A stretch of DNA of 64,000 bases, from assembly GCF_026008515.1 (NCBI RefSeq), contig NZ_BQYM01000002.1, forward strand, positions 248,001 through 312,000, written 5' to 3'. The position numbers were made by a program, and so were the translations under genes. Each line of letters starts with the position of its first letter. Position 1 is the first letter of the stretch. Source of the DNA: Hoyosella levis. Its GTDB lineage: Bacteria; Actinomycetota; Actinomycetes; Mycobacteriales; Mycobacteriaceae. This document shows, piece after piece, positions 14,457 to 44,319 of this stretch. The notes beneath the pieces are model-generated. The model searched no databases, had not been told where the DNA came from, and worked only from the letters and a program-made list of their open reading frames with translations.

Positions 14457-16138
<1,682 letters not shown>

Positions 16139-16179
16139 CGATCCATCTGCTGTGAGCTGTCGCGGATAGCGCCGGCGCG

Positions 16180-16244
16180 CCGACGAGTGTGCGATAACCG
16201 TCGGTGTGCCGGGCTGAAACGGTCGTTCTTCGCACACTCGTCGG
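16180..16244. repeat. 15-bp perfect inverted repeat downstream of aroB
   Basis: The arms CCGACGAGTGTGCGA (16180-16194) and its exact reverse complement (16230-16244) are separated by 35 bases. The element lies between aroB and the convergent B-4DMT gene. It could be a terminator stem or a REP-like repeat; neither end has a T-run. It sits directly before a second, longer palindrome. Confidence 0.7.
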
Positions 16245-16251
16245 CCTCTGA

Positions 16252-16297
16252 CAACGAGGGGAAGCCTGCACCATGTGGTGCAGGCTTCCCCTCGTTG
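16252..16297. terminator. Perfect 22-bp inverted repeat, likely bidirectional terminator
   Basis: Two 22-base arms (16252-16273 and 16276-16297) are exact reverse complements with only TG between them, giving a very stable hairpin on either strand. The left arm begins CAACGAGGGGAAGCC. It lies between aroB (ends 16138) and the convergent B-4DMT gene (ends 16319), the expected place for a bidirectional terminator. There is no T-tract, which is common for GC-rich actinobacterial terminators. A mobile palindromic repeat is the alternative. Confidence 0.6.
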
Positions 16298-16318: not shown

Positions 16319-16960
16319 CTACCGCTTGTCGTCGCGGTCCGTGGCGCGCTCCGCGGCGAAATCGGAGTCGCGATACTCACCTGCGTGCTCGGAATCGCTA
16401 TGCTGCGCTTCCCCGTGCTGTGCGTCCCCGTGATGGGCGTCCGAGCGGTGCGAACCGGCGAGGATCGGCTCCTTCTGGTGGTGCGCATGAATGGGATGCC
16501 GCCCGTACTCGTCCTCGGGCTCCGGCTCGGTCGACCGGCGCCGCGCCCGGGAACCGAAGACCCGCCCAAGGAGAATGCCGATCTGCGCGGGAATCGACAG
16601 CATGAGCAGCATGAATCCCGCGCCGATGGTGACCTCGATGATCAGGTTGCCGCTACCGATGCCCGGAAGGATGAACCACAGCAGCCAGGAGACAAAGCCG
16701 GAGACGACGCCCGCCACTCCGGCCGATTTCAGCCACAGCAGCGTGAGATCTGCACGATCCTCCTCGTCCTCGAACTCTTTCGCGTCGGCGTAGCCGTCGA
16801 AGAAAGGCCAGGCGAGCGCCGCGATCATCACGACAAGGATGGCGATATAGCGCTGGGTGGAACCGGATTCGGGCCAGGCGTAGATCCCGTAGCCGAGCAC
16901 TGCCCGGACGAAGACAACGACGGCCGCGAGGATCAAACCACGGATGAGCCACAAGTTCAT
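16319..16960 (-). CDS. B-4DMT family four-helix membrane protein with His-rich tail
   Basis: A 213-residue integral membrane protein. Four helices are visible at about residues 5-25, 38-55, 76-100 and 106-135, matching the actinobacterial B-4DMT family, whose transport substrate is not known. The cytoplasmic-looking tail is unusual: residues 155-192 hold ten histidines, and residues 174-193 form four 5-residue repeats (DAHHG, DAQHG, EAQHS, DSEHA). Metal binding is possible but inferred. I start at the ATG ending at 16960 because the helix begins there and a TACCCT element lies 6 bases upstream. The same gene lies between aroB and pepQ in mycobacteria as I recall (Rv2536). Confidence 0.8.
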   Translation of the reverse strand: MNLWLIRGLILAAVVVFVRAVLGYGIYAWPESGSTQRYIAILVVMIAALAWPFFDGYADAKEFEDEEDRADLTLLWLKSAGVAGVVSGFVSWLLWFILPGIGSGNLIIEVTIGAGFMLLMLSIPAQIGILLGRVFGSRARRRSTEPEPEDEYGRHPIHAHHQKEPILAGSHRSDAHHGDAQHGEAQHSDSEHAGEYRDSDFAAERATDRDDKR

Positions 16961-35504: not shown

Positions 35505-35574
35505 CAAACGCGATAGAAGCTGCAGCCAACACGGCGTGTCTCACCGGCGTGCCGGGCAGCTTCTATCGCGTTTG
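35505..35574. repeat. 19-bp inverted repeat, member of the CAAACGCGATAGAA family
   Basis: The arm CAAACGCGATAGAAGCTGC (35505-35523) is exactly complementary to 35556-35574, with a 32-base spacer. It fills the convergent gap between padR and fadB. The same core (CAAACGCGATAGAA and its complement) recurs at 44270-44319, so this is a dispersed repeat family that may act as a bidirectional terminator. Confidence 0.8.
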
Positions 35575-44207: not shown

Positions 44208-44271
44208 GTGGTGAGACCCGGCCGTGGTGAGCCCCCGACGTGGTGAGCCCCCGACGTGGTGAGACCCGGCA
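44208..44271. repeat. Four tandem 16-bp repeats after the amidase gene
   Basis: Four consecutive units: GTGGTGAGACCCGGCC, GTGGTGAGCCCCCGAC twice, and GTGGTGAGACCCGGCA. The outer pair and the inner pair match each other best. The array lies 36 bases after the amidase stop and runs straight into the CAAACGCGATAGAA inverted repeat. Confidence 0.85.
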
Positions 44272-44319
44272 AACGCGATAGAAGCCGTGGAAATGGCGGG
44301 GTAGTTTCTATCGCGTTTG
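44270..44319. repeat. 14-bp inverted repeat, second member of the CAAACGCGATAGAA family
   Basis: The arm CAAACGCGATAGAA (44270-44283) is exactly complementary to 44306-44319, with a 22-base spacer. It lies between the amidase gene and a convergent membrane-protein gene, like the copy at 35505-35574. Shared sequence at two loci argues for a repeat family rather than a one-off terminator. Confidence 0.8.

Follow-up and report, generated by a model that had tools for sequence, protein, structure and literature searches.

The aroB/B-4DMT junction

The window, by which we mean the whole 64,000-nucleotide stretch analysed (G000:C2:248001-312000), belongs to a genome of 3.61 Mb in 35 contigs (G000). 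It carries the aroB gene for 3-dehydroquinate synthase and, on the opposite strand, a B-4DMT family transporter gene, so that the two genes converge (Table 1). The source is a relative of Lolliginicoccus suaedae: the AroB protein shares 96% identity with its counterpart there and 86% with the one of Hoyosella rhizosphaerae. The start of the transporter gene is that of a home-made gene caller, and the open frame reaches 17203. When relatives of the transporter were sought in viral contigs, 15 stretches fitted a pattern and none was confirmed.

Two inverted repeats lie between the stop codons. One is the 46-nt palindrome. The other, which was absent from the original prediction, is an imperfect inverted repeat 6 nt upstream of the palindrome, designated R1. 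The aroB transcript would run into R1 first and the palindrome second, and the B-4DMT transcript would meet them in the reverse order.

Table 1. Coordinates of the genes and repeats in the window.
Feature	Position	Strand	Description
aroB, 3-dehydroquinate synthase	15023..16138	+	TIGR01357, 344.6 bits (cut-off 305)
R1, imperfect inverted repeat	16179..16245	.	model match 16175-16249, 60-nt core 16183-16242
46-nt palindrome	16252..16297	.	22-nt arms (16252-16273, 16276-16297) around TG; putative bidirectional terminator with no U-tract
B-4DMT family transporter gene	16319..16960	-	NF037996, 131.2 bits (cut-off 100)
R2 copy, longer (68 nt)	35506..35573	.	between convergent genes
R2 copy, 48 nt	44271..44318	.	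arms AAACGCGATAGAA / TTCTATCGCGTTT; between convergent genes

Sequence, fold and copy number of the palindrome

The palindrome reads CAACGAGGGGAAGCCTGCACCA-TG-TGGTGCAGGCTTCCCCTCGTTG, and the complementarity of its 22-nt arms is 100%, just as first described. The aroB stop (16138) is 113 nt away and the B-4DMT stop (16319) 21 nt away. Under a model of independent bases with 17/33% composition, about 1.6e-5 palindromes of this kind (arm ≥22, loop 0-8) would be expected in 3.61 Mb. RNA from either strand was predicted to fold into a 21-bp stem with a 4-nt loop, at -47.8 kcal/mol for the plus strand and -49.0 kcal/mol for the minus strand (z = -9.2 and -10.2). None of 200 shuffles was as stable on either strand.

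Both tails, AGCAGTCTTGGG on the plus strand and TCAGAGGCC on the minus strand, were free of T-runs. The claim that the palindrome has no T-tract thus holds on both sides, and this is usual in mycobacteria according to the available text of a review (PMC12288462). A consensus terminator scan gave no terminator-like match at the palindrome, and a canonical (L-shaped) intrinsic terminator fails here for want of a T-tract directly after the stem. A genome-wide search for the arm sequence had been proposed as a check. The only strong matches were the palindrome itself on its two strands, and the other four were 14-18-nt pieces with E values of 1.2-2.3. The palindrome is therefore single-copy, which rules out a genome-wide repeat. 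In Rfam, 12 matches were found at E ≤1, to microRNA and other hairpin families; all were far under the gathering scores and were taken as chance.

The junction in related genomes

Comparison with close relatives, also proposed originally, revealed homologous hairpins with compensatory changes at the same junction in two sister species, GCAGAGAGCCCGCGCCACATGGCGCGGGCTCTCTGC in L. suaedae (G001) and CAGGGAGCCCGCGCCATGGCGCGGGCTCCCTG in a third species (G002). Across these three sequences, which are all that the covariation test contains, 7 of the 22 stem pairs were changed on both sides, none was changed on one side only and none was broken. The remaining 15 pairs were invariant, 5 of them having letters in one sequence only. 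On four of five covariation measures, 0 of 500 shuffles reached the observed value; on the fifth, which counts further pair types, 93 of 500 did. At the aroB junction of another genome of the genus, G003, the sequence reads as in H. rhizosphaerae, with a hairpin present and R1 absent.

For a broader view, 80 loci were fetched by AroB, and 65 of these had a B-4DMT match on the opposite strand. The computed gap was negative at 7 of the 65 (overlapping or misplaced) and very long at several. A hairpin scoring ≥12 was present in the gap at 36 of the 65 junctions, compared with 0.05 in total predicted from shuffles. The examined gap contained none at the other 29, which include at least one case, L073, of a hairpin after aroB being hidden by a negative gap. 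By eye, the sequences of the junction hairpins were mostly unrelated between genera. Nine Nocardia junctions (L036, L037, L042, L044, L045, L053, L054, L059 and L061) have hairpin words like AACGGCGCACCC in common, and these may be another lineage-specific 3'-end family.

Perfect hairpins across the genome

The genome was sampled as 40 stretches of 20 kb at regular spacing, to which the window was added (864 kb in all). A simple home-made coding model placed 703 genes in this sample (84% coding) and missed some, such as a 189-aa frame at 14457-15026. We listed 36 perfect hairpins (arm ≥12, loop ≤8), compared with 6 in three shuffled copies together, none of the 6 exceeding 14 bp (bases were shuffled within 200-nt blocks). 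The arm of the focal palindrome was the joint longest of the 36, equal with one other. By place, 13 hairpins were convergent, 16 codirectional and none divergent, with 4 inside called genes and 3 at the edges of stretches. Among gaps of 30-400 nt, those with a hairpin numbered 11 of the 63 between convergent genes, 11 of the 258 between codirectional genes and none of the 91 between divergent genes (convergent vs divergent, P = 3e-5). The 8 bases following hairpins of arm ≥10 in such gaps were 30% T, compared with 16.6% in the counted non-divergent intergenic regions, and only 2 of 37 tails had at least 5 T in the 8. This placement, together with the mildly T-rich tails, is what terminators with poor U-tracts would be expected to show.

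When the repeats were counted along with the hairpins, a perfect hairpin, R1 or the second repeat R2 (below) occurred in 36 of 85 convergent, 4 of 112 divergent and 27 of 313 codirectional gaps of at least 20 nt. The other 49 of the 85 convergent gaps contained none of these, indicating that convergent genes do not need them. Among the 85, the focal gap alone had both a perfect hairpin and R1, and two others had a hairpin together with R2. There is also turnover in this class: hairpins of arm ≥11, the focal one included, were kept at the orthologous place in 3 of 6 cases in L. suaedae and 3 of 4 in the third species.

The R1 family

R1 consists of an outer arm, an A-rich linker, an inner arm, a loop, and then the second inner arm, a T-rich linker and the second outer arm. 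A covariance model built from 21 copies gave, at E ≤0.1 and with both strands counted, at least 104 matches in G000, 118 in G001 and 98 in G002. These counts are lower bounds, 150 of 2317-2928 candidates per genome having been scored (150 of 2891 in G000). There was no match at this threshold among the 150 candidates scored in G003, so that R1 was found in three of the four genomes of the genus examined. One 19-nt half of R1 (≤1 mismatch) occurred in 7 of 301 genomes of the GTDB family: 45, 78 and 37 times in G000, G001 and G002, and once each in four further genomes that belong to a single genus. Over all genomes, the reversed control gave 2 matches. A search of plasmids with the R1 stretch gave no match.

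The 864-kb sample held 14 copies, of which 6 were convergent, 4 codirectional, 3 divergent and 1 in a called gene; a weak match (L159:5916-5991, 22.1 bits, E 0.02) was excluded. A larger set of 116 copies from the three species, which are not independent and were partly selected by score, comprised 57 convergent, 40 codirectional and 15 divergent copies, with 2 in genes and 2 at edges. For comparison, 18% of the intergenic bases in the sample lie in convergent gaps. The length was nearly constant, 113 of the 116 copies aligning to the model without gaps. The five columns that follow the inner stem (52-56) contained at least 4 T in 102 of 112 copies, and columns 20-24 contained at least 4 A in 80 of 112. 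At two loci, L114 and L123, tandem partial copies of the R1 arm directly adjoin full copies.

R1 was present at the aroB junction in G000, G001 and G002, and among 12 examined loci of relatives it was found only at that of L. suaedae (L008). Most copies also kept their place. From G000 to G001, at least 30 of 40 were at the same place, 1 place had no copy, and 9 had flanks outside the compared sequence; the G001 pieces were fetched around known R1 copies, which makes 30 a lower bound and under-counts losses. In the reverse direction, 30 were shared, 3 lacked a G000 copy and 19 places were outside the compared sequence. In 28 orthologous pairs, identity was 90-96% in the outer and inner arms, 69-76% in the linkers and loop, and 73-74% in the flanks. 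When neutral divergence of 27% was simulated, 171 of 780 copies were still detectable, with a motif identity of 80%; selecting detectable copies therefore does not explain the conservation of the arms. R1 is old, and it is apparently under selection where it stands.

This conservation concerns the sequence and not the pairing, which speaks against R1 working purely as a hairpin. Covariation among 36 copies was weak, most stem pairs scoring no higher than shuffled partners, with column pairs 14/63 and 38/39 the better ones. Between orthologs, 65 stem pairs were changed on one side, 49 of them making or breaking a pair, and only 3 both-side changes kept a pair. The orientation of R1 agreed with the gene strand in 4 of 13 codirectional gaps of G000 and disagreed in 9, leaving a one-way reading unsupported. 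An origin from a mobile element, of the kind formed by REP sequences and a Y1 transposase, was likewise unsupported. The transposase (PF01797) occurred in one of the four genomes of the genus, with a single match in G000, and was missing from the two other R1 carriers, G001 and G002; the copies, moreover, are conserved in position.

The R2 and g29 families

R2, with the form AAACGCGATAGAA-N22-TTCTATCGCGTTT, had 72, 65 and 88 exact-arm copies in G000, G001 and G002 when a gap of 8-38 was allowed. A search of 16 further genomes, G003 and 15 from other genera, found none, and the control gave 0. All matches listed from G002 and G000 were 48 nt long, in a search that allowed 34-64. In the 864-kb sample, with up to 3 mismatches per arm, there were 31 pairings, two of which share one site; 27 of the 31 were 48 nt long. 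By place, 22 were convergent, 7 codirectional, 1 divergent and 1 at an edge. A further 51 half-site words (≤3 mismatches) had no partner and were taken as chance. The R2 core showed little pairing past its first position, and several core positions paired below the expectation across copies. This sparse pairing implies that R2 is not a full hairpin.

The third family was reached from a starting word that occurs in mycobacterial genomes. The word matched 3 of 81 genomes, all of genus g29, which is probably Mycobacterium, and six loci there look like the R1-type plan, some with imperfect right arms. A pattern of this plan (GCGAG....CG.AAA, gap 18-40, TTT.CG....CTCGC) matched 13 of 298 genomes of the order, from 3 of 77 genera, and its reversed control matched 0. 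Eleven of the 13 belonged to g29. Of the other two, G000 had a single match, and G439 is an incomplete genome from another family in which one g29-type 60-mer (locus L258) lies on a contig that possibly represents contamination.

The g29 elements take the form GCGAGCAGACGC-N36-GCGTCTGCTCGC (L275-L314, five genomes). The lengths of 48 copies from these genomes were 60 (41 copies), 59 (5) and 61 (2), at places chosen by a pattern allowing 48-70 and in a reading that allowed 30-120; two further pairings (80 and 115) reuse an arm of a 60-nt copy. Across the genus, at least one exact-arm copy was present in 100 of 148 genomes, with a maximum of 56 and a control of 0. Among 77 plus-strand matches listed from 13 genomes, 72 were 60 nt long, 4 were 59 and 1 was 62, with 45-75 allowed. 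Convergent gaps contained 27 of the 48 copies and codirectional gaps 15; 3 more were divergent and 3 fell inside called genes. A stop codon lay within 15 nt of 38 of the 42 copies in the first two groups. Pairing was well kept in this family. In the 41 exact 60-mers (the other 7 copies were left out), 91% of cells paired, compared with 80.7% in shuffles, and 16 of 27 pairs showed both-side changes. The covariation score was 0.249 against 0.083, a value that 0 of 500 shuffles reached. One g29 60-mer searched against plasmids and phages gave no match. A link to a named species comes from a published M. tuberculosis pckA primer, which on our reading extends from the stop codon into GGCGAGCAGACGC, with one arm visible only (in the accessible text of PMC5843633).

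Interpretation of the palindrome

We consider it reasonably probable that aroB and the B-4DMT gene share the palindrome as a transcription terminator of the 'I-shaped' kind, which has no U-tract, here working in both directions. Its position, its structure and the structure-preserving changes together point to a structure acting as RNA at the ends of both transcripts. RNA from either strand would fold into the 21-bp GC-rich hairpin behind RNA polymerase; this hairpin would pause the polymerase and promote release, possibly with the help of NusG and Rho, and would leave a stable 3' end. A terminator at this place would guard both genes against antisense reading. That polymerase stops here, and by which route, we infer from the sequence. 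The original prediction had offered a hairpin that stops transcription from both sides or a DNA cruciform. The hairpin stands as the best reading in view of the convergent genes, the hairpin class at 3' ends and the compensatory changes, and for the cruciform the only support here is the symmetry of the site.

In the available text of a 2025 review, mycobacterial genes are said to use mostly I-shaped terminators without poly-U, ≤50 bp from the stop, and Rho-dependent termination is called dominant in mycobacteria (PMC12288462). Streptomyces Term-seq terminators follow a similar trend, with long stable hairpins and few U (PMC12207403, in the portion available). Set beside the mycobacterial 50 bp, the 113 nt to the aroB stop, with R1 in between, count against the I-shaped reading, while the B-4DMT stop, at 21 nt, is inside that distance. 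Further points against it are the dominance claimed for Rho, the 29 of 65 junctions with no such hairpin in the examined gap, the 49 of 85 convergent gaps that contain neither hairpin nor repeat, the 3 of 6 orthologous places in L. suaedae that had no hairpin, and the number of sequences in the covariation test, which is three. It is disputed whether the RNA polymerase of actinobacteria stops at hairpins that lack a U-tract: Ahmad (2020) reportedly claims that the U-tract is dispensable, and Czyz (2014), to go by its title, is said to find that mycobacterial RNA polymerase requires one, which also counts against this reading. G000 offers a natural series of such hairpins, and the focal one covaries between sister species.

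The main rival holds that Rho terminates further on, and that the hairpin only halts 3'-5' exonuclease trimming, thereby defining and protecting both mature mRNA 3' ends. It predicts the same anatomy, a stable fold placed at the 3' end. The dominance of Rho in M. tuberculosis, where canonical sites are only 2-4% in the review text available (PMC12288462), favours it. So does SEnd-seq, which, in the sections of the report accessible, describes strong termination sites as scarce and, at 121 sites, finds no motif conserved on the 3' side of the hairpins (PMC10937400). Trimming alone leaves the T enrichment in the hairpin tails unexplained, and we regard this rival as possible, with a chance that is appreciable but clearly the smaller part. 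An element working at the DNA level, whether its dyad is bound by a protein or it relieves supercoils between the convergent genes as a cruciform or gyrase target, would suit the perfect dyad with its 2-nt centre and the convergent setting. Such an element is improbable given that the palindrome is unrepeated in the genome and that the junction hairpins of other genera look unrelated by eye; the 7 both-side changes among the three species also fit a structure and not a bound sequence.

R1 might instead do the terminating, in which case the palindrome would be a relic or a redundant backup. The enrichment of R1 at 3' ends, its largely conserved positions, the T-rich stretch after its inner stem and its presence at the aroB junction in all three species that have R1 speak for this, as does the focal gap being the one convergent gap with both elements. 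A relic would hardly keep perfect pairing through 7 both-side changes, and the pairing of R1 itself is poorly kept between orthologs, which makes this the least probable of the explanations and a very unlikely one. On the preferred reading as a bidirectional I-shaped terminator, the palindrome is an unusually strong but otherwise ordinary example of a type of element already known.

Possible role of the fixed-length families

The neighbouring families of near-fixed length may matter more than the palindrome. R1 (60 nt) and R2 (48 nt), both in Lolliginicoccus, and the g29 family (60 nt) have much of a plan in common, with conserved arms, a more variable core, a near-fixed length and a place at gene ends, and all three favour gaps between convergent genes. 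The tight length and conserved arms exceed the needs of a simple hairpin terminator. Tentatively, several lineage-specific 3'-end palindrome families of near-fixed length in the window's GTDB family might act as two-way transcription boundaries that are sequence-specific and depend on a factor, which would add a third mode to intrinsic and Rho-dependent termination. On that reading, as neither feature is required by a hairpin, a protein would probably recognise both arms at a set spacing, on DNA or on a rigid RNA hairpin; the tight length and variable centres point to such a putative reader, which is open to direct search. If these families are terminators, they would help to explain how facing genes are separated in GC-rich mycobacteria, which are reportedly poor in canonical terminators.

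A search of open-licence PMC text found no description of the R1, R2 or g29 families. The arm sequences gave short-word matches only, some in topics that are non-actinobacterial by title and some in primers or oligonucleotides. For dispersed palindromic repeats in Actinobacteria, only Thermomicrobium turned up.

Comparison with known systems

Inverted pairs of DNA-uptake sequences act as terminators in Neisseria and Haemophilus. The R1-type families resemble them in the short conserved word, the inverted pairs and the location at 3' ends, and differ in their nearly fixed spacing; no uptake role is known for them. R1 also resembles the REP/BIME elements associated with TnpAREP (RAYT), which are dispersed, multicopy extragenic palindromes, 13 of the 14 sampled R1 copies being outside called genes. 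However, REP sequences are 20-40 bp long in the available text of PMC3733652, whereas R1 has a near-fixed 60-nt core, occurs without a Y1 transposase in G001 and G002, and has kept its position between G000 and the sister species G001 for at least 30 of 40 copies.

A survey of 40 genomes including M. tuberculosis describes stem-loops at the 3' ends of convergent genes, with a preference for convergent over divergent gaps and for sites near stop codons, as here (PMC1590033). The portion of that text available names new repeat families for Yersiniae, Bordetellae and Enterococci and describes no actinobacterial one.

The palindrome itself is like the mycobacterial I-shaped terminators, as described in the accessible text of PMC12288462, in having a stable GC-rich hairpin, no poly-U and a place 3' of stop codons. 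Unlike them, it lies 113 nt, and not less than 50 nt, from one of its two stops. It goes beyond their description in that its arms are the joint longest in 864 kb and it is common to two convergent genes, with release so far only predicted. The bidirectional terminators of Bacillus cereus, as far as the accessible part of the report on their compensatory evolution goes (PMC5381666), have a flanking A-tract and T-tract that the palindrome lacks, and the junction stems here look unrelated between genera. Like the palindrome, they place one stem between convergent genes and keep its pairs through double substitutions.
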